This document shows positions 19,406-30,087 of a stretch of 64,000 nucleotides of DNA, one piece after another. The DNA comes from Nitrospinota bacterium (GTDB taxonomy: Bacteria > Nitrospinota_A > UBA7883 > JACRLM01). Every line of letters starts with the position of its first letter. Position 1 is the stretch's first letter. The notes below the pieces were generated by a model that did no database searches, was not told the origin of the DNA, and saw nothing but the letters and a program-made list of their open reading frames with translations. Location: positions 313,834 to 377,833 of the forward strand of contig JACQXA010000001.1 of the NCBI GenBank assembly GCA_016208975.1. Direction: 5' to 3'. The position numbers and the translations under genes are program-made.

Positions 19406-20356
19406 CTATCCGCCGGTCCGCCGGGAGCCGGCAGACTCACCGCTGGCCAGTTTTTGATCCCGTTCAGCCACCTTCATGTCCCGGAACTTCTTTATCCCAT
19501 ACAGCGTAAGGGGTTTTAGAACGTTCTTCTGGATAGCCCTGTTCGCCACCGGCACGTTATACCCCTCCGGAAAAATGTAAACCTGCGTCCCCTTCTCCGC
19601 AAACCGGCCCAGCTCCATAATATGGAAATCGTTCACCTGCACACAGCCTTTGGTGGGTTTGGTTTTGTCCCCCATGCCCGAACCGTGGATCCAGATGCCA
19701 TATCCCGATTTGCCCTGTTTCATATCCACATCATTGGGATAGTTAAGCACGAACGCCCTGGGGCCATATTCCGACAACAGCTCGGCGTCTTCCTTGATAC
19801 CCACTATTTGATAAATCCCCTCCGGGGTCCGTTTATCCCCGGTAACCTGTTTATCGCCACGTTCGGCGCCTATGGAGATGGGGTATTGCTCCACGATCCG
19901 GTAATTGTCCTGCGTCTCCTCCAGGACGTAAAGCGCATGGTTCGTTTTATCCACCGCCAGGGTATAAATGGCGCTGGTTTCCTGCGCTGGAATATCGAAA
20001 TCCGGCAGGGGAAGGGCCGCCAGATCAGGGATATTCAAGGCAATAGCCTCAACCTCTTCAGGGGTGGGCAGAGTGGGGCTTAAGGCCGATGTGGTTAAGG
20101 CGCTGTCTTGCGCCACTCCAGGGTTTGAGTATTTCCCCACCGCCACGGAGCCCATGGGGCCGGTAACCGCCCAGCTGATCACAGAAAAAGCCACGATGCC
20201 AGTACCGGCGAAAACGGCCACTTTCTTAAACGATGGGGACTCGCCATGAAAATTGAAAGCCTGGGTAACCTCCAGGTTCTGACGGCGCACGCTGAACGAA
20301 ACCCTGGCTTGATACATCATCAGCCTGGCCCTGCCCAGCATGTTGTCTTTTATCAT
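19406..20356 (-). CDS. L,D-transpeptidase (YkuD family)
   Basis: This 316-residue protein has a cytoplasmic basic N-terminus, one transmembrane segment (about residues 48-68, VAVFAGTGIVAFSVISWAV) and a periplasmic YkuD domain (residues about 150-275). The catalytic motif is IWIHGSG followed by PTKGCVQV, with nucleophile C238. The family makes 3-3 peptidoglycan crosslinks or attaches proteins to peptidoglycan. GDKQVTGDKRTPEGIYQI, just after the start of the domain, is also typical. Its start overlaps the upstream AMIN/NTF2-like lipoprotein gene by 4 bases (ATGA), so the two are coupled. Which of the LDT reactions it performs cannot be told from sequence. Confidence 0.9.
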   Translation of the reverse strand: MIKDNMLGRARLMMYQARVSFSVRRQNLEVTQAFNFHGESPSFKKVAVFAGTGIVAFSVISWAVTGPMGSVAVGKYSNPGVAQDSALTTSALSPTLPTPEEVEAIALNIPDLAALPLPDFDIPAQETSAIYTLAVDKTNHALYVLEETQDNYRIVEQYPISIGAERGDKQVTGDKRTPEGIYQIVGIKEDAELLSEYGPRAFVLNYPNDVDMKQGKSGYGIWIHGSGMGDKTKPTKGCVQVNDFHIMELGRFAEKGTQVYIFPEGYNVPVANRAIQKNVLKPLTLYGIKKFRDMKVAERDQKLASGESAGSRRTGG

Positions 20357-21496: not shown

Positions 21497-22033
21497 CTAC
21501 TTTCGAATGAGGGGTTTTGGGGCCGGATTAAGGTTTCGCGCCTCGGTTATAGGGTCATACAGAAAGAGGATAAATGGGAAACTGTCCCCTTTCCCGGCGA
21601 TGGTAAGCTCGAATTGTAGCCGCCTGATTTTCCCCACTGGTTTGCCCCACACCGCGTGCGCGCGCCACATGTCCCGCCCGCTATAATCCGGCCTGCCATA
21701 TTTTTGAACCAGCTTTTGAAATATCATGAATGGGTCTGGCGGATCTTTGAAAATCTCCCTTTTCTCGATGTAGTACAGTAATGACCCGTTCGATGGCCCG
21801 GTAAACCGCAAATGAAGCCCCCCACCCTCACCGCGTATTGCTGTCAGGGCATCCCCCTCGCGGTGAAGCTCTTCATATTTTAAGGCGGGTTTTACCGACT
21901 TCACCTGCTCCAGTGTCATCCCCAGCCTTAACCCTTCGATCTCGAACATGGACACGTCCGCCAATGGGAAAGCGGGCTCCACCAAGCATAGGCTAATGAC
22001 AATGAGGGCTGAAACCGTTTTATAAAATGACAA
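21497..22033 (-). CDS. Exported protein of unknown function, last gene of the respiratory operon
   Basis: The frame encodes a signal peptide (YKTVSALIVISLCLVEPAFPLA) and about 150 mature residues with EGLRLGMTLEQVKSVKP, a motif typical of small secreted proteins that precede a calcium-free beta fold, and FQKLVQKYGRPDYSGRDMW. No family assignment was possible. TTG 22033, with GGAG 4 bases upstream, gives a normal signal peptide and a 14-base overlap with the upstream gene. An ATG at 22126 is also in frame and would add 31 residues and a 107-base overlap. It belongs by spacing to the eight-gene minus-strand operon. Confidence 0.65.
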   Translation of the reverse strand: MSFYKTVSALIVISLCLVEPAFPLADVSMFEIEGLRLGMTLEQVKSVKPALKYEELHREGDALTAIRGEGGGLHLRFTGPSNGSLLYYIEKREIFKDPPDPFMIFQKLVQKYGRPDYSGRDMWRAHAVWGKPVGKIRRLQFELTIAGKGDSFPFILFLYDPITEARNLNPAPKPLIRK

Positions 22034-22544
22034 AAGACTCCTTCCCGGACTCAAAACTGATGACCACAGCCCTCCGCGCCTGGCCGTTGACCGTGGTCTT
22101 ATATTCATAATCATACTCATCGCCATCCCCCACCGAATCTTTCATGGCCACTTTAATTTCATGCTCCCCCGCGGGCAGAATGAACCTTCGATAAACATAA
22201 CATGCGCCGTCCCGCCTTATGCCCGCCGGGATCACTTCCAGCTCCGCTTTCAGCGCGCCATCAATCCAAATTACAAGTTGTAACGGAACCCGTTCACGGC
22301 TTCCACATTCGGCGTTTGCCCGGCGCATGTGTTTCAGCCTTTTCTCCGCCTGGGCGTGGAATTCCGCCAGCTCTTTTTCATCACACAGATGAACCCGGTC
22401 CGTCACCTTCTTGAATGACACGATGACCCCCATGGTATCTTCGGCGTTGAACCTGTACCCGGGCCAGTCCGAGAATACCCCCACCGCCAGGGCTGGCGCC
22501 ATGAGGATTATCAACCCTATTATATTGAGCCGTGCGCCACTCAT
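22020..22544 (-). CDS. Membrane-anchored or exported protein of unknown function in the respiratory operon
   Basis: This 174-residue protein has an N-terminal hydrophobic segment (LNIIGLIILMAPALAVGVF), probably an uncleaved anchor, and a soluble domain outside the cytoplasm. The domain includes a central Cys-containing region (LCDEKELAEF; RRANAECGSRER) and a beta-rich C-terminus (YVYRRFILPAGEHEIKVAM). The latter resembles a carbohydrate- or immunoglobulin-like sandwich seen in some PEGA-like domains, but the match is weak. The start overlaps the stop of the cytochrome b fusion as ATGA (22541-22544), so it is coupled to it and may be an accessory subunit. Confidence 0.7.
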   Translation of the reverse strand: MSGARLNIIGLIILMAPALAVGVFSDWPGYRFNAEDTMGVIVSFKKVTDRVHLCDEKELAEFHAQAEKRLKHMRRANAECGSRERVPLQLVIWIDGALKAELEVIPAGIRRDGACYVYRRFILPAGEHEIKVAMKDSVGDGDEYDYEYKTTVNGQARRAVVISFESGKESFVIL

Positions 22545-24166
22545 TTATCCCCCCCTGTTTTTGAGCCGTCGAAAAACCCCGTAAGGTTTTTTTTCAGTTC
22601 ATCCACTTCATAAGGGGACACGTGAAACACTTGCACCCTGAAATCTTTCATCTCCTCCACCACGAAATGTTTGGGGAACTGGACGGTTTGGTCCTTGATG
22701 CGCCGCCGGGTTTCGCGGTAATGGCAGTCCAGCGCCCTGCACCCGGCCACCGCCACACAGGAAGCCCCGGCCGTAAAGCAATGCTCCACCATCAACGGGC
22801 TTATAACTCCTATACACGGCGTGATGACCAGCGCCGACGAAGGATGGAACGTAAGAGTCGCGTCTTTTTCCGAGGTAAATCCGGACAAATCGCAACACCT
22901 CTCGCAGATGAACGTTACGGATGGCTCGCCATTCCGCCGGGCTTCGCCGATGGCTTTATCTATGGCGGCCTGGAAATCGCTTTTCGTATGCCCGGCCATG
23001 GCCACCGCGTCAAACTCGCAGGAGGTCACGCAAAATCCGCATTCGGCGCACCGGTCCGTATCCACGGTCACATACGCCCGCGTCTCGCCGTTCACCAGTT
23101 TCTCCACTATGTTCACGGCTTCGAATGGACACGCCTGGAAACACAACGCGCATCCCACGCATTTTTCCAGATCCACCGTGATGGCCCCCTGGGGCGCCAT
23201 GGTTTCCGCGCCGGGTTTTCGCGCCGGGCTACGGATTATCCAGGGCATGGCGGTAAACAGGCCGAACAGCGCCGCGCCCCACGCCCATACTGCCAAAGGT
23301 GGGATGGAGTATTTATGGATCAGCGGATAGGGCCAGAAATAAAACCAGTCCATCTCCACTTCGCCAAGTATCTTTGACAGGTCCGCCGGGGCCATGCTTA
23401 ACGCCGGTTTCACGAGGGAAACAGCCAGTAGAGATATGATTATGGCCCACCCCACAGGTTTCGGCGGCAATATGTTGGGCCGCGCCACCCGCATGCAATG
23501 GAGCCAGAGAAGCCCCATTATTAAAAAAGGTATCGTGATGTGCAGATACGTTATTACAAAAAAGAGCAGGAAATGCACCGAGCCGCCGGTAAGGAAGTTG
23601 CGGGAAAGCGGTTCGGCGCTCAGCGGCAACGGGTCTAACAGTTCCGCCGTAAGCTGTGCTATCATCCGCCCCTTCTCGTCCCACACAAGAAAATAGCCGG
23701 TGACGCCGTCAAACCATGCGGGGAATAACACAGCCGCTCCGGACACCCACGCCACCCAACGGTTCTTCCGGAACCTGTCCGAAAAGAACACCTGCAATAT
23801 GTGGATGGCGATGACTATCAATAATCCGTCCGCGGCGTACCTGTGAAGCGAACGGATTATCCCCCCATAATAACGCTGGTTTTCGGTGATGTATTGGACA
23901 GACTCATACGCGTTCGTAGCGCTAATCTTGTAAAAGAGGAACAGGTAAAGCCCCGTTGCGATCAGTATCCAGAAAAACAGGAACGTTATTCCACCAAGAA
24001 GGTATAGAGGATTAAGGGATGGGGTGAATACCTTGTTCAAGGTTTCCTGGACAAACACCAGCAGCGCGTTGCCCGGGCGCAGTATCATCGGGATTTGCTG
24101 TTTGCGCTCCCCGCCCGCCCTGGCGCCGGGGAGCGGCCCAGCCGGGTCTTTCAACTTCCCTTCCAT
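22541..24166 (-). CDS. Fusion of cytochrome b, 2x[4Fe-4S] ferredoxin and an MvhD-like domain
   Basis: This 541-residue protein has three modules. Residues about 25-310 form a cytochrome b6-type membrane domain with His pairs in RSLHRYAADGLLIVIAIHIL and in the HFLLFFVITYLHI and LLWLHCM helices, so two haems b are expected. Residues about 330-405 hold two ferredoxin clusters, CVGCALCFQACP and CAECGFCVTSCE. The C-terminal 130 residues resemble the MvhD/FlpD iron-sulfur subunit, with paired CC in FICERCCD and VAGCRALDCHYRETRRR. ATG 24166 shares a base with the upstream stop (TGATG). By inference it passes electrons between a quinone pool, a soluble low-potential donor and the operon's haem-copper enzyme. 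No Rieske protein or cytochrome c gene is visible nearby. Confidence 0.85.
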   Translation of the reverse strand: MEGKLKDPAGPLPGARAGGERKQQIPMILRPGNALLVFVQETLNKVFTPSLNPLYLLGGITFLFFWILIATGLYLFLFYKISATNAYESVQYITENQRYYGGIIRSLHRYAADGLLIVIAIHILQVFFSDRFRKNRWVAWVSGAAVLFPAWFDGVTGYFLVWDEKGRMIAQLTAELLDPLPLSAEPLSRNFLTGGSVHFLLFFVITYLHITIPFLIMGLLWLHCMRVARPNILPPKPVGWAIIISLLAVSLVKPALSMAPADLSKILGEVEMDWFYFWPYPLIHKYSIPPLAVWAWGAALFGLFTAMPWIIRSPARKPGAETMAPQGAITVDLEKCVGCALCFQACPFEAVNIVEKLVNGETRAYVTVDTDRCAECGFCVTSCEFDAVAMAGHTKSDFQAAIDKAIGEARRNGEPSVTFICERCCDLSGFTSEKDATLTFHPSSALVITPCIGVISPLMVEHCFTAGASCVAVAGCRALDCHYRETRRRIKDQTVQFPKHFVVEEMKDFRVQVFHVSPYEVDELKKNLTGFFDGSKTGGDK

Positions 24167-24999
24167 CACGCCGCCCGGCAAAGCCTGAGAACCGAGGCGG
24201 TGAACCTGCCTATCCTCCCCCTGAAAATGTATATCAGCGTAGCCATTACCAGAAGATACTGGATCCCCCAGGACACTATCAGAAACGGATTTACCCGGTA
24301 GGTTTTTGTGGCCGGATCGTAGGTGGAGCAGAACAACGTCAGCGAGTTCACAGCGCGGGAGATACTGCCTGTCACACCGGCGCTTTGCGACGCCTTTATG
24401 GCCGCCTCCACCTCGCCCACGTCGTAATCCACCCCATAGAAGTGGCGTATTACTTTTCCTTCGGAGTTTAATAGCGTAAGACGGTTGAGATGCTCGTACC
24501 CGCCACCCTTCTTCTCGTAGAAAAATCCCAGGTCCAAAACCAGTTCGTCTATGGTTTCCCTTTCCGCCGTGGCGAATATCCAGTTGTCCAGACCGGTTGA
24601 GAACTGCGCCCCGTATTCTTTCAATTTGGAAGGCGAATCGTTCTGGGAATCCAGGCTGACGGATAACACGGTGACGCTACCGGCCACCGCGGGATCCATT
24701 TTATGTAGAAGGTTTTTTATGCTCTGGTTGATGAGATGACATGGGCCGTTGCAGTCTATATACATGAAGCTTATCAGCGCGGGGGCGCCCTTCAGTTTGT
24801 AAAGGGGCATCTGTTCCCCATCCTGGGTGAGCAGGCGGAAATTCCTGGGCGTTTGGCCTGTTACAAATTCTGACCGGGCCAGGCGAGGCTCGAATCCTCC
24901 CGGCCCGGTCTCCCCAGCATAAGCGGGAGCGGCGTTAAGGCGCAGGAGGAAAAATAACGCCACCCCAGCCCTGAGAATAAATAAGTAACCGTTTTTCAT
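24166..24999 (-). CDS. SCO1/SenC-like thioredoxin-fold copper protein with C-terminal membrane anchor
   Basis: This 277-residue product has a signal peptide (LFILRAGVALFFLLRLNAAPAYA) and a thioredoxin-fold domain with the SCO copper motif C-N-G-P-C (C-x3-C) and a distal His in EHLNRLTLLN. SCO proteins deliver copper to the CuA site of cytochrome oxidase subunit II, which is encoded two genes upstream. Unusually, a transmembrane helix lies near the C-terminus (FLIVSWGIQYLLVMATLIYIF), after an extra 30 residues. GGGAG lies 5 bases before ATG 24999; the open frame extends upstream but lacks homology there. It is coupled to the cytochrome b fusion gene. Confidence 0.88.
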   Translation of the reverse strand: MKNGYLFILRAGVALFFLLRLNAAPAYAGETGPGGFEPRLARSEFVTGQTPRNFRLLTQDGEQMPLYKLKGAPALISFMYIDCNGPCHLINQSIKNLLHKMDPAVAGSVTVLSVSLDSQNDSPSKLKEYGAQFSTGLDNWIFATAERETIDELVLDLGFFYEKKGGGYEHLNRLTLLNSEGKVIRHFYGVDYDVGEVEAAIKASQSAGVTGSISRAVNSLTLFCSTYDPATKTYRVNPFLIVSWGIQYLLVMATLIYIFRGRIGRFTASVLRLCRAA

Positions 25000-25036
25000 T
25001 ACCGCTCCCAACAAACAACAAGCGGTGGAAAACCGT

Positions 25037-25171
25037 TTAACCGGTCTTCCACACCTCCGCCAGGAACATCCAGTTGAGCAGGTAATACACAAGGAACGTC
25101 ACGAAAAAGATCATGATAAGGACAAACGATCCTTTCGGATGGTGTTCTTCCCTTTCAAACTCTTGCGACAT
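25037..25171 (-). CDS. Tiny oxidase subunit, subunit IIa-like (44 residues)
   Basis: A 44-codon frame lies between the SCO-like gene and subunit I and is preceded by a strong AGGAGGG ribosome-binding site. The product has a charged N-terminus (MSQEFEREEHHPKGS) and one hydrophobic helix (FVLIMIFFVTFLVYYLLNW). Position, size and the H-P-K-G motif before the helix resemble subunit IIa of ba3-type oxidases, a single-span stabilising subunit. By that analogy it should sit next to subunit I. It is short enough to be missed by automatic callers. Confidence 0.75.
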   Translation of the reverse strand: MSQEFEREEHHPKGSFVLIMIFFVTFLVYYLLNWMFLAEVWKTG

Positions 25172-25199
25172 GGGTGTTAGCCCTCCTTCCCAAAAACGC

Positions 25200-26720
25200 T
25201 CAGGCGTTTATCTTTTTACCCACCAGCAAAGTGCCAACGGCAACCAGCACATACATGGCCCCGCCTACAACGCACAGCACGCCGGAGATGCCCACCACGG
25301 CCATGGTAAGGTCCACCACCGGGCCGAAGTTAACCTGGAACGGGGCGTCCACGCCGGTCATGTCCCACTGTCTGCGCGACACGCCGAACCCACCGGCGAA
25401 CATCATGGCGGTGCAGAACGCGTACAGGCTTAATCCATAAACATAAGGTTGCCATTTGGCTATCCCCTTGAACGCCACCTCACGCCGGAAAATCAGCGGA
25501 AGCACATAATAGGTAACGCCCATGAAGGCCAGCGTTGTGCCCGCCACAACCGTGGCGTGGAAATGGCCCGGTATGCGAAGGGTGTTGTGGGAGATGATGT
25601 TCAACTGCTCGGTGCCGTACACAACCCCGGAGATGCCGCCCAGAAAGCCGAAGCCGACCAAAGACAACGCCAGCGATGAAAACGCCGGGTCGCCCCATGG
25701 GGCTTTCTTGAGCCATTCGAACAACCCCTTGGTGTAACCCTTCTTGCGCAGGGCCACCTCCACCGCCGCCGGAACCGAATAGGCGTGGATCATGGAAGCC
25801 AGAACGGCAAGGTGCATGAAGTAGCCGGTGTTCCAGGTTTTATGGGCCGCGCTCAACCCCGGATCCACCAGCAGATGGTGCTCCGACGCGATGCAGATGA
25901 ACAGGATATAAAGCGCGAAGGCGCTTCGGGAAACCTTTTCGTTGATGGGTTTGGAGCCGGTGGTAAGCGTGCCCAGCAGGTACCACACCGAGACCATGGC
26001 GCACACGTTTATCTGTTGCGAGGAATGCCCGAATCCCCAGAACAATAAACGGTACACCTCCGCGTCCATCATGGGTATCAGCCCCAGCGCCCACAGCCAG
26101 GTGGGAACGAACGTGATGGCCCCGTGGGCCAGGGTGATTATGGCGATTATCGCCGCCGCCGCCGCGCCGAAAGTAACCAGCGGGACGGAGCCCTCATAGG
26201 TCTTCTCGTGTTTTGCCACCATCAGCGTGGCGAAGAACACCACGCACCCCACAATGGCGCCAACGGCGAACAGTATGATGCCTAGGTAATACCAGTGGCT
26301 GGCCGCCAGCGGCACGTATGATGTGAACATCACGTCGGCCCGGCCCATGAGCACCTCCACCGTAACGATGGCTCCGCCAACGAGCATCAACACATATTGA
26401 ACCCAGCCAGCCCACGGCGCCGCGAGCCTGCTGTTGAGCAGTATGGCCGAGGCGAAATATAGTATGGCCATTTCGAAGAAGATTATCCAGGCCACCAGCA
26501 TGGCGATGCCGTGGAGCGTGAGAAGACGGTAGAACCACTCCTCATTGAGAAGATGCACCGTCTGCCAGCGGGTCAACGCCATGAAAAGCCCCATTATGCC
26601 CCCCACCAGCAGGAACACAATGGCGGTGACGGCGTTGATCTGTATCAGCACCTCGGCTGGCCTGTGTACTTTCAGGCCGGTGGTCGGGCATGTCCTAAAA
26701 GCAAGAGTATCGGCGTTCAT
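25200..26720 (-). CDS. Haem-copper oxidase-superfamily subunit I, active-site Tyr replaced by Gln
   Basis: This 506-residue protein has about 12-14 membrane helices. Metal ligands are present: H70 (LTLHG, low-spin haem), H232 (WGFGH, CuB), H281 and H282 (SEHHLLVDPG, CuB), and H386/H388 (PGHFHATVVAG, the two haems). The last two motifs resemble B-type (ba3) oxidases. Oxidases have G-H-P-x-x-Y at the first CuB ligand; here it is G-H-S-S-Q-Q, so residue 236 is Gln and the cross-linked Tyr needed for O2 reduction is absent. Loss of that Tyr is known in NO reductases of the superfamily. GGAGG lies 8 bases before ATG 26720. The function inferred is NO reductase or another non-O2 reductase. Confidence 0.88.
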   Translation of the reverse strand: MNADTLAFRTCPTTGLKVHRPAEVLIQINAVTAIVFLLVGGIMGLFMALTRWQTVHLLNEEWFYRLLTLHGIAMLVAWIIFFEMAILYFASAILLNSRLAAPWAGWVQYVLMLVGGAIVTVEVLMGRADVMFTSYVPLAASHWYYLGIILFAVGAIVGCVVFFATLMVAKHEKTYEGSVPLVTFGAAAAAIIAIITLAHGAITFVPTWLWALGLIPMMDAEVYRLLFWGFGHSSQQINVCAMVSVWYLLGTLTTGSKPINEKVSRSAFALYILFICIASEHHLLVDPGLSAAHKTWNTGYFMHLAVLASMIHAYSVPAAVEVALRKKGYTKGLFEWLKKAPWGDPAFSSLALSLVGFGFLGGISGVVYGTEQLNIISHNTLRIPGHFHATVVAGTTLAFMGVTYYVLPLIFRREVAFKGIAKWQPYVYGLSLYAFCTAMMFAGGFGVSRRQWDMTGVDAPFQVNFGPVVDLTMAVVGISGVLCVVGGAMYVLVAVGTLLVGKKINA

Positions 26721-26734
26721 ATCCTCATCCTCCT

Positions 26735-27265
26735 TCAGGATTCCACGTAGATCTTGCCGATCATCGTGTGATGCCCGATGCCGCAAAACTCGTTACAGAT
26801 TATGGTGTACTCTCCCGCCTTGGTGGGCGTGACCACCAGAAGGTTGTCCCATCCGGGGACCACCTCGAAATTGATGTTGATGGGAAACACGGAGAACCCG
26901 TGGTTCACATCACCCGAGGAAAGATGGAGCTTGTATGAGCTGTTTGCTTTCAGTTTCAGGATGGGGTCCCACGAAAACTGCCGGGCCCTCAGGTAAATGT
27001 CGCTATCGGCTGGTGGAGCCACTACGGGCGTCCCCTGCTCTTCCCCCACCTTATACTTGTCTATGAACCTGTCCGTGGCCTTGTCAAATTCCACGGCGGT
27101 CATTTTTGAGTAGGCCTGCGACGTGTTCTGCTCCCCTGTCACGTGCCACCAGGGCATGGCCAGGGTGAGAAGTATGCTCCAGGTGAGGGCCAGGATAATC
27201 CACAATCTTTCTTCCTTGTGGACCGGGGTGTCCCACCAGTTTCTGTCCGGCGATGAGATGCTCAT
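26735..27265 (-). CDS. CuA-binding subunit II of the haem-copper enzyme
   Basis: This 176-residue protein has one N-terminal transmembrane helix (LWIILALTWSILLTLAMPWW) and a periplasmic cupredoxin domain. The CuA ligands are complete: H in DVNHGFSV, then C-N-E-F-C-G-I-G-H-H-T-M near the C-terminus (C-x3-C-x3-H-x2-M). It should therefore receive electrons from a periplasmic donor and pass them to subunit I. The single N-terminal helix and short length resemble ba3-type subunit II. It lies 14 bases upstream of subunit I and 21 bases downstream of the first small subunit. Confidence 0.92.
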   Translation of the reverse strand: MSISSPDRNWWDTPVHKEERLWIILALTWSILLTLAMPWWHVTGEQNTSQAYSKMTAVEFDKATDRFIDKYKVGEEQGTPVVAPPADSDIYLRARQFSWDPILKLKANSSYKLHLSSGDVNHGFSVFPININFEVVPGWDNLLVVTPTKAGEYTIICNEFCGIGHHTMIGKIYVES

Positions 27266-27286
27266 GGTTTTTAATCCCCCAAAATG

Positions 27287-27457
27287 TCAATTTACCGCCT
27301 GGGTAAAGCCCACTGTGCCCAACTCCACAAGCCCCCACACGGTATAGCTTATGAAAGTGATGGCCACTCCGAGGAAGAACAGGAGGAAGATGTCGTCCAG
27401 AAACACTTGCCAGAACGAGATGGGTTTTTGCTGATCGGGAGATTTTTCCTGCGCCAT
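27287..27457 (-). CDS. Small single-span membrane subunit (56 residues), first gene of the respiratory operon
   Basis: This 56-codon frame begins with AAGGGG 7 bases before ATG 27457. The product has a polar N-terminus (MAQEKSPDQQKPISFW) and one helix (VFLDDIFLLFFLGVAITFISY), then a short tail ending FTQAVN. It sits immediately before the CuA subunit gene, so it is likely a structural subunit of the same complex. I do not recognise a named family. Like the 44-residue gene in the same operon, it is easily missed. Confidence 0.72.
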   Translation of the reverse strand: MAQEKSPDQQKPISFWQVFLDDIFLLFFLGVAITFISYTVWGLVELGTVGFTQAVN

Positions 27458-27699: not shown

Positions 27700-28881
27700 C
27701 TAGGCTTTTATATCCAGCAGATAACCGGCCATTTCATCGGCGGCCTGGATCATTTTGGTTTGGGCGGTAAATCCGTATTTCGCCTGGATAAGGTTCACCA
27801 TCTCGCTCCCCAAATCCACGCCGGAAGCTTCCAGGGAGCCGGGGACTATCTCCCCAAATGAGCCGCTGGCGGCTACTCCGGCTATGGGCTGGCCCGAAGC
27901 GGCGGTTTCAAAATAAAGGTTGTTCCCGCCCCTCGATAGCCCGCCCGGGTTGGCGAAGTTATAAAGCTCCACCTGGGCCACCGGCTGGCTTTGCCCGTTT
28001 ATCATGGCCGACACGGTTCCATCGCTCCCAACCGACAGGCCGGAAATTTGCCCGCCGGGCGCTCCGTCCTGGGTGACGGCGGTGACTGTGGAGGCGGAAG
28101 CATACGATTTAACGCCACCGGCGGAGTTTAAATCCCAACTCATGGTCATGGGATCCGCTCCCGATGGAAAACCGGTTATGGTAAGGGATGGATTCGACGC
28201 TGGCGATGCAAGGTTCCCCGCCGAATCGAACGAAAGGGTTCCCGCCGCGCCGGAGCCGCTCAAGGTGGTTCCAGCCGGGCCGGTGGCGGAATAATCCCAC
28301 GTCCCGGCGCCGGTTTTGGTGAACGAATATGTGATGGGTACGCTCTCCCCCAGCGAGTTGTACGCGCTTACGGTAGTGGAAAAATTTTCCCCCACGGGAG
28401 CCTGGGCGTCCAGGTTCATCCCAAAACTGAAGGAACTGCTACCCTTTGGGGAGCCTTGCGCGTTAGATATATAGATATCCCCCGCCTGGGAGCTTCTAAC
28501 GAGAGCGCCCGAAGAATCCCTGGTGTAGGAATAACCCTGGATGAGGTTTCCGTTGGAGTCGGCAAGCCTGCCCCGGCTATCAATCTTGAAATCCCCGCCC
28601 CTGGTATAACCCGTTTGGCCATTGGGGCCTACGGCCTTGAAATAGCCGGAGCCGCTGATGGCCATATCCAGCGAGGCGCCTGTATAAGTGATTGCGCCTT
28701 GGGAATGCACGGTTTGCGTGGAGGCGGTGTAAACCCCCATCCCGCCCGGCAAAGACTGGTTTACAGTCCGGGATGGGCTGAATGCCGTGGTGTTTAGGTT
28801 TGCGATATTGTTGGCCGTAACCCTGGTGTTGTTCACATAGGCCCTCAGGCCAGACAGGGCGGAACCGAGACCTTCTATCAT
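27700..28881 (-). CDS. flgE: Flagellar hook protein
   Basis: This 393-residue protein is a FlgE-family hook or hook-basal-body protein. The N-terminal rod motif (GLRAYVNNTRVTANNIANLNT), the mid-protein FlgE/F/G-type DMAISGSGYFKAV followed by GYTRGGDFKI, and the C-terminal GVDLGSEMVNLIQAKYGFTA are all present. The central region is Ser/Gly/Thr-rich, as in hook proteins. Length is typical of FlgE (about 400). It stands apart from other rod and hook genes, with flagellin divergent beside it, and a sigma-28-like promoter lies upstream. A hook-like paralogue rather than the main hook protein cannot be excluded. Confidence 0.88.
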   Translation of the reverse strand: MIEGLGSALSGLRAYVNNTRVTANNIANLNTTAFSPSRTVNQSLPGGMGVYTASTQTVHSQGAITYTGASLDMAISGSGYFKAVGPNGQTGYTRGGDFKIDSRGRLADSNGNLIQGYSYTRDSSGALVRSSQAGDIYISNAQGSPKGSSSFSFGMNLDAQAPVGENFSTTVSAYNSLGESVPITYSFTKTGAGTWDYSATGPAGTTLSGSGAAGTLSFDSAGNLASPASNPSLTITGFPSGADPMTMSWDLNSAGGVKSYASASTVTAVTQDGAPGGQISGLSVGSDGTVSAMINGQSQPVAQVELYNFANPGGLSRGGNNLYFETAASGQPIAGVAASGSFGEIVPGSLEASGVDLGSEMVNLIQAKYGFTAQTKMIQAADEMAGYLLDIKA

Positions 28882-29238: not shown

Positions 29239-30087
29239 ATGGCACTGCGAGTCTATAACAACCTTTATTCAGTGACCGCCCAGCGACACTTGGGCAACAA
29301 CAGCGGCGCTCTTCAGAAATCTCTGGAAAGGCTATCTTCAGGTTTGAGGGTCAACCGCGGCGCGGACGACGCGGCCGGCCTGGCCATATCTGAAGCTCTG
29401 CGGGGTGACATCCGCTCCCTTCAGCAGGCGTCCAGAAACGCTTCCGACGGCGTGAGCATGATAAACACCGCGGAAGGCGCCCTCTCCGAGCAGTCTTCAA
29501 TCCTTGTTCGTATGCGGGAACTGGCCTCCCAGGCCGCCACTGGCACTGTAGGCTCCACCGAGCGGCAGACCATCAACCGTGAGTTCAACGCGCTCCGCAA
29601 CGAAATAGACAGGATTTCGGCGGTTACAGAGTTCAACGGGCAGAAGCTTATAGACGGCTCTCTGCGTTCCGGCGGCTCAAGCGTGGTTATCCATGTGGGT
29701 ATGCAGGCCACCAGCAACGACCGCATCAACCTCAATACCTCCGTGGATCTGACCGCCATAGACTCCACCGGTTTGAACATCACCAACATATCGGTGACCC
29801 ATGTCCAGTCGGCCCTGGATTCGATGACCAGGCTTGATTCGGCCATCTCGACCGTTACGGAAGGCCGCGGTAAACTGGGCGCGGTGCAGAACCGGCTGGT
29901 GCACACCATCAACAACCTGGCGGTGAGCGCCGAGAACCTGCAGGCCGCCGAATCGCAGATCCGCGACGCCGACTACGCCAGTGAAATATCGCAGTTCACC
30001 AGGAACCAGATACTGGTGCAGGCTTCCACCGCGATATTGGCCCAGGCCAACCTGGTGCCGCAGACGGTGTTACAGCTCTTAGGGTAA
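29239..30087 (+). CDS. fliC: Flagellin
   Basis: This 282-residue flagellin has conserved N-terminal D0/D1 (RHLGNNSGALQKSLERLSSG, then INRGADDAAGLAISE-like RVNRGADDAAGLAISEALRG) and C-terminal D1/D0 (GAVQNRLVHTINNL; NILVQASTAILAQANLVPQ-like end). The surface-exposed centre is short (about 100 residues), so the filament has only a small variable domain. GGAGG lies 9 bases before the ATG. A strong terminator follows. It is divergent from the hook gene. No flagellin glycosylation or export genes are visible in the window. Confidence 0.95.
   Translation: MALRVYNNLYSVTAQRHLGNNSGALQKSLERLSSGLRVNRGADDAAGLAISEALRGDIRSLQQASRNASDGVSMINTAEGALSEQSSILVRMRELASQAATGTVGSTERQTINREFNALRNEIDRISAVTEFNGQKLIDGSLRSGGSSVVIHVGMQATSNDRINLNTSVDLTAIDSTGLNITNISVTHVQSALDSMTRLDSAISTVTEGRGKLGAVQNRLVHTINNLAVSAENLQAAESQIRDADYASEISQFTRNQILVQASTAILAQANLVPQTVLQLLG

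Follow-up and report, generated by a model that had tools for sequence, protein, structure and literature searches.

A predicted eNOR-family nitric oxide reductase in a Nitrospinota bacterium and a linked, conserved cytochrome b-ferredoxin-MvhD protein

Introduction

The families of nitric oxide (NO) reductase can be told apart by a single active-site residue, which is Gln in eNOR, Asn in sNOR/CuANOR, Glu in cNOR/qNOR, and Asp in gNOR (PMC8756737 Table A4). The eNOR enzyme has been characterised biochemically as a NO reductase (PMC11388526), and NO reductase activity has been reported for the family (PMC8879329). A relative from magnetospirilli, described as ba3-a1, has a SCO gene in its operon (PMC6431628), and in ba3 operons the gene for subunit IIa (cbaD) lies upstream of that for subunit II (PMC3128077). 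Here we analyse an eight-gene cluster (genes A to H, Table 1) in a 64,000-nucleotide stretch of DNA from a Nitrospinota bacterium, hereafter the window (GenBank assembly GCA_016208975.1, contig JACQXA010000001.1, positions 313,834 to 377,833). An original prediction, made from the letters of the window, had read this cluster as a respiratory operon in which a Tyr-less haem-copper enzyme, reducing NO or another acceptor, forms one membrane complex with a cytochrome b-ferredoxin-MvhD fusion protein.

Results

The product of gene C, subunit I, matched the COX1 domain of Pfam (E=1.1e-60), and its closest solved structures are ba3 oxidases. The CuB ligands H254, H303, and H304 and the haem ligands H92, H408, and H410 are kept (numbered by the open reading frame [ORF] of the window), and Gln258 (GHSSQQ) stands where the ba3 enzyme of Thermus thermophilus has its catalytic Tyr (GHPIVY). 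Across the alignment this position, four residues after the first CuB His, holds Gln in each of the 106 eNOR-like sequences and Tyr in all six ba3-type outgroups. In a tree made without long-branch relatives and without sNOR, bNOR, gNOR, or nNOR references, the split between 95 Gln and six Tyr sequences had 100% support in the SH-like approximate likelihood ratio test (SH-aLRT), and sequences from Thermus and Thermomicrobium plasmids fell on the Gln side; the published eNOR set (PMC8756737) likewise includes a Thermus protein. Subunit II, encoded by gene B, matched COX2 (E=1.4e-7) and CoxB (E=2.7e-17), and the CuA motif was present in the window protein and in 79/79 homologues. Because of the Gln in place of Tyr, the intact CuB and haem His residues, the CuA subunit II, and the grouping with Thermus homologues, subunit I is assigned on its sequence to the eNOR family, and NO is very probably the substrate of the window enzyme. 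The original prediction of a Tyr-less CuA enzyme, with NO as the likely substrate, is upheld by these results.

Several other identities were considered and rejected. The SCO gene and a small ORF first suggested sNOR (norSY-senC-orf1), but sNOR has Asn where the window family has Gln, and the same residue sets the family apart from CuANOR/bNOR. Gln and a CuA subunit were found in place of the Glu and the c-type or fused second subunit of cNOR/qNOR, and the cross-linked Tyr of a ba3-type (B family) oxygen reductase is replaced by Gln.

Two tiny membrane proteins, A and D, had been predicted, and both do have one helix each. Gene A lies directly upstream of the subunit II gene in nearly all relatives, the place that subunit IIa takes in ba3 operons. 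A hidden Markov model (HMM) of D, however, matched the final ~35 residues of subunit I in Proteobacteria and Gemmatimonadota (mostly 560-610 aa; E 1e-10 to 1e-16), which identifies the 44-aa protein as the detached last helix of subunit I; we therefore rejected D as a novel, separate subunit. The SCO-like protein E matched SCO1-SenC (E=3.3e-13), and its CxxxC motif was found in 58/58 homologues.

Two variations on the haem-copper theme were noted in passing. Thermus-type subunit I sequences (L087, L185, L186) have a Lys (GHFKG) aligned to the second His of HxH, a low-spin haem ligand elsewhere. A second haem-copper-like protein, named by no NCBIfam model, recurs near eNOR; it keeps haem His and one CuB His (GH..Q, HYH) and has neither the CuB His-His pair nor the Tyr. 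It is present in the host (L099:7913-9247; host genome C4:2141963) and at L082, L084, L086, L109, L112, L114, L115, L117, L119, L152, L159, L162, L168, L169, L173, L174, and L179.

The fusion protein F proved to be a constant neighbour of this enzyme. We examined the best 80 of at least 566 eNOR loci and counted synteny at the 43 of them with at least 4 kb upstream and at least 6 kb downstream. F was found within 8 kb of eNOR at 41/43 of these loci, and a protein with both [4Fe-4S] motifs at 40 of the 43; it lay downstream on the same strand at 26 and divergently upstream at 14. The loci with F span Nitrospinota, Proteobacteria, Gemmatimonadota, and Bdellovibrionota. Gene order A-B-C-D-E-F(-G) is shared by ~18 Nitrospinota genomes and recurs in other phyla. 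Within the phylum of genome G031, which is independent of Nitrospinota, five genomes had both F and eNOR, always on the same contig within ~2.7 kb; one had F without eNOR, two had eNOR without F, and 38 had neither (p=9e-5, with the reservation that related genomes are not independent). Close F orthologues were located nearly all at eNOR loci.

Synteny across several phyla led us to reject F as a chance neighbour, and the whole arrangement is far beyond chance. The conserved neighbourhood takes in the fusion gene as well as the oxidase part, and the fusion is not found mostly in unrelated contexts, since five of the six F-bearing genomes in the phylum of G031 have F beside eNOR. The predicted functional link between the two thus stood up well. 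Because F is at nearly all of the long-flanked loci and G is fused to the F C-terminus in seven loci (L112, L117, L134, L135, L159, L162, L175), F and G are best read from these patterns as genuine partners of eNOR.

A divergent F paralogue lies directly behind a Ser/Thr kinase gene at L093:8741-10588 (host C4:668740), L092, and L094. For L093 and L094 the kinase was confirmed, so that the pairing occurs in no fewer than two Nitrospinota genomes; in the host the site is ~17 kb from the nirK locus.

The first 240 residues of F are b6-like, and in 25 diverse sequences H113/H127 and H214/H228 were invariant. The ferredoxin part has eight Cys (C341-C388) in 25/25 sequences, and the MvhD/FlpD part has C426/C456 in 25/25 and C481/C486 in 24/25, so that ligands for two haems b, two [4Fe-4S] clusters, and one [2Fe-2S] cluster are conserved. 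Segment 235-320 was missed by Pfam in the window protein; the best of 15 single members matched Cytochrom_B_C (E=1.8e-4). Searched as a profile, all 19 listed matches of the segment were cytochrome b6f subunit IV or the C-terminal half of cytochrome b, the best being subunit IV (E=0.0028), with PEWY aligned to DWFY in an EMDWFY loop. The C-terminal arm matched that of HdrA2 (E=6e-28). F thus has the two-haem cytochrome b and the Qo loop of bc1/b6f enzymes, with DW(F/Y)Y rather than PEWY. No Rieske protein or cytochrome c1/f was identified among the eight genes or their recurrent neighbours, the rest of the genome not having been searched for a Rieske protein. F therefore combines both halves of a cytochrome b core, including a loop like that of quinol sites, with an arm of the HdrA2/QmoB type, and six predicted helices, together with the known b6 topology, would place this Fe-S arm in the cytoplasm. 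The loop lends weight to quinol as the donor, as had been proposed.

Near eNOR in several Betaproteobacteria, F is joined or replaced by a cytochrome b with [2Fe-2S]-FAD-NAD(P) domains. This variant was found at L165, L173, L174, L153, L132, L168, and L179 (Betaproteobacteria and Steroidobacteraceae), its domains being scanned in L165 and the remaining loci recognised by sequence resemblance. The loop is kept as DWFY, or as PDWYY in L173. Since the [4Fe-4S]2-FlpD and NAD(P)H-flavin arms appear exchangeable, the partner of the cytoplasmic arm may well be a soluble electron carrier, either ferredoxin-like or NAD(P)H.

Two further proteins, G and H, had been described as unknown exported proteins. 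Of the 80 loci, 53 have a homologue of G. G is predicted to consist of an N-terminal helix and a beta-sandwich in which two Cys, C54 and C80, are nearly invariant, and its AlphaFold model (predicted local distance difference test score, pLDDT, 93.9) had no match in the PDB at E<=0.001. Rather than being simply exported, G is membrane-anchored, with its large domain probably in the periplasm, where we take it to be a putative partner of the cytochrome b of F, serving for docking or in a structural role. H is exported as predicted, but it is an accessory whose homologues were found in Nitrospinota only; the core of its AlphaFold model is confident, and a PDB search with it gave no match at E<=0.001. 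It may stand at either end of the operon, being last in the window (21497-22033) and sometimes upstream of A in other Nitrospinota (loci with H: L104, L105, L107, L111, L113).

The host genome comprises 2.97 Mb, and its closest relative in our genome set is the Nitrospinota metagenome-assembled genome (MAG) nNGHbin12 (86% identity in subunit I), which has been placed in class UBA7883 (PMC10839748); the host probably belongs to this class too. From a domain scan of one representative per cluster, the recurrent neighbours of eNOR include hemerythrin (18 loci), a cytochrome cd1 (NirS-type) nitrite reductase family (9), and a CRP/FNR-type regulator family (8), and the Thermus homologues adjoin an Rrf2-type regulator and a DUF542 gene. 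The host encodes a NirK of 335 aa that is close to PDB 4kns and falls under the NCBIfam cut-off. A search of the host genome for NirS found none, and one for NosZ gave cupredoxin-level matches only. QmoA-, QmoB-, and QmoC-like genes are also present (L197:6837-11479; host C4:1622836-1627478), consistent with sulfur metabolism, and the QmoB-like protein bears the same ferredoxin-MvhD arm as F.

Eight tightly spaced ORFs on the minus strand (21497-27457) were confirmed at every coordinate, and Pfam recognised COX1, COX2, SCO1, and Cytochrome_B + Fer4 + FlpD domains among their products, in agreement with the predicted layout (Table 1). Several listed ORF starts are too long, and we refined them from the sequence. 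For subunit I, ATG 26720, with a good ribosome site, is more likely than TTG 26786, and ATG 24999 is the more likely start of E. Gene F possibly starts at ATG 24166, which gives a one-base overlap with the stop of E, and H perhaps at TTG 22033. G and F overlap as ATGA. Upstream of A, a hairpin and then a stretch of Ts, seen by eye, are consistent with the end of the preceding gene. We looked for an FNR/NNR box upstream of the operon and found none. On one side the operon is flanked by cell-envelope genes (L,D-transpeptidase-like, 19406-20356), and on the other by flagellar hook/flagellin-like genes (27700-28881 and 29239-30087), with no functional link seen.

Table 1. Genes of the cluster, with coordinates in the window
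Gene	Position	Strand	Product
A	27287..27457	-	Membrane protein of 56 aa with one helix, placed as subunit IIa is in the B family
B	26735..27265	-	Subunit II: single helix and CuA cupredoxin domain (CNEFCGIGHHTM)
C	25200..26720	-	Predicted eNOR subunit I; ORF reaches TTG 26786
D	25037..25171	-	44-aa helix, the detached C-terminus of subunit I
E	24166..24999	-	SCO-like copper chaperone (CNGPC) with signal peptide and C-terminal helix; ORF reaches TTG 25092
F	22541..24166	-	Cytochrome b core, 2x[4Fe-4S] ferredoxin, and MvhD/FlpD [2Fe-2S] domain; ORF reaches TTG 24181
G	22020..22544	-	174-aa putative partner of F; N-terminal helix and beta-sandwich
H	21497..22126	-	209-aa ORF; exported protein, accessory in Nitrospinota only

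Discussion

We favour, with moderate confidence, a reading in which an eNOR-family NO reductase (A, B, and C+D, with E for maturation) has a dedicated membrane electron module made of F and G. F would oxidise quinol at a site on the periplasmic face and pass electrons to CuA, replacing the Rieske/cytochrome-c branch, with G docking to it periplasmically. CuA of subunit II would accept electrons on the periplasmic side and hand them by way of the low-spin haem to the haem/CuB(Gln) site for the conversion of 2 NO to N2O. On the cytoplasmic side, the Fe-S arm would exchange electrons with a soluble carrier, which would be ferredoxin-like in this cluster and NAD(P)H in its betaproteobacterial counterpart. 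We lean towards F feeding eNOR and give quinol an even chance of being the donor; for the arm, electron entry is about a balanced bet and exit a weaker candidate, and sequence cannot separate the two. A single membrane complex with a side entry or exit for electrons had been proposed, and of this the functional link stood, whereas a physical complex of F and eNOR and the direction of flow are matters of inference. Some observations weigh against the reading. eNOR occurs without F in Thermus, on Thermomicrobium plasmids, and at L115 and L148, and F is therefore not needed for NO reduction as such; F is reduced to its cytochrome b part in two Nitrospinota genomes (L074, L076); and its PEWY-like loop is without Trp in Gemmatimonadota.

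The same occurrence of eNOR without F would fit F and G being a separate enzyme, co-regulated with eNOR, that carries electrons between the quinone pool and ferredoxin or NAD(P)H in the cytoplasm, while ordinary cytochrome c feeds eNOR. The family is said to use cytochrome c (PMC8879329), and F homologues are found in other contexts, such as beside the Ser/Thr kinase in the host genome. We nevertheless regard this as rather unlikely in view of the very tight linkage across phyla, the overlapping genes, the SCO gene between C and F, and the near confinement of close F orthologues to eNOR loci. Slightly less probable still is that quinol electrons are bifurcated, one going to CuA and eNOR and the second travelling by way of the b haems into the Fe-S/MvhD arm (FAD/NAD in the betaproteobacterial variant). 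CuA might then, on an equally speculative footing, replace Rieske as the high-potential acceptor, with NO reduction driving the bifurcation and yielding reduced ferredoxin or NAD(P)H in the cytoplasm; if true, such a respiratory complex would remove NO and at the same time supply lithotrophs with low-potential reductant. The Qo-like loop on a subunit-IV-like segment, the conserved n-side clusters, the retention of DWFY with the exchangeable NAD(P)H arm, and the Qmo genes of a host related to sulfur oxidisers all point in this direction, and by textbook midpoint potentials bifurcation is feasible for menaquinol. It would, however, demand more driving force in ubiquinone users, there is no Rieske-like first acceptor and no evidence of gating, and the sequence equally allows the reverse direction.

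To read subunit I as an oxygen reductase, degenerate and of low affinity, and not as a NO reductase seems to us very improbable. Automatic annotation does name its relatives "cbb3-type" or "ba3-type" oxidase, and in an earlier paper the enzyme, called a "degenerate B family oxidase", was given no definite function (PMC6431628). Later papers, however, give the family NO reductase activity (PMC11388526, PMC8879329), the cross-linked Tyr is missing in every member, and the context is one of NirS, NirK, and CRP.

An eNOR with its own electron module, as we prefer to read the cluster, bears on what Nitrospinota are thought to do with nitrogen oxides. A survey of the phylum found norBC and nosZ in none of the genomes analysed and nitrate reduced at most to nitrite or possibly NO (PMC10839748). 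MAGs named as in that survey (nNGHbin12, NC_59_16, NC_63_8, NC_41_11, and UBA7883) carry eNOR, and its subunit I bears database labels such as cytochrome c oxidase, cbb3- or ba3-type. The survey lists norBC and nosZ only, and the absence of NO reduction from it is likely due to annotation. With eNOR and NirK and no NosZ, these MAGs are predicted to be N2O sources, which suggests that non-nitrifying Nitrospinota of marine waters and groundwater, believed until now to be without NO reduction, are able to produce nitrous oxide. Through its conserved cytochrome b-Fe-S-MvhD module, the cluster also opens the question of the electron donor of eNOR to direct test.

Compared with known systems, the cluster is less singular than the original prediction held: its catalytic core belongs to a named family, described earlier as ba3-a1 with SCO (PMC6431628) and then as eNOR, and the whole cluster is widespread. 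What is new for Nitrospinota is the predicted NO reduction. With eNOR (ba3-a1 subtype) the cluster shares the Gln active site, the CuA subunit II, and the small helix upstream of subunit II, but the published descriptions consulted give two subunits and SCO and no cytochrome b-2x[4Fe-4S]-MvhD protein or G. The F-G module is undescribed in the eNOR literature accessible to us, which did not cover a 2024 paper on NO reductase diversity. The sNOR of ammonia oxidisers (norSY-senC-orf1) is likewise a CuA-type NO reductase with SCO/SenC in its operon, but it has an Asn active site (PMC8756737 Table A4) and its named operon is without a cytochrome b-Fe-S gene. For the cytochrome b part of F the best NCBIfam match is ExtP of the b-type cytochrome ExtP/ExtQ from selenite/tellurite reduction operons, although its 115 bits are below the cut-off of 290, and ExtP and ExtQ are separate proteins in another context. 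Like cytochrome b6f/bc1 (cytochrome b and subunit IV), F has two bis-His haems, cd and ef loops, and a PEWY-equivalent DW(F/Y)Y; the window cluster differs in being without Rieske or cytochrome c1/f and in adding the cytoplasmic Fe-S/MvhD arm. F also has Leu where b6 has the Cys to which haem cn is attached. The C-terminal arm of HdrA2/QmoB (ferredoxin and MvhD) has the same module order as F, but in F the flavin HdrA core is absent and the arm is joined instead to a membrane cytochrome b.

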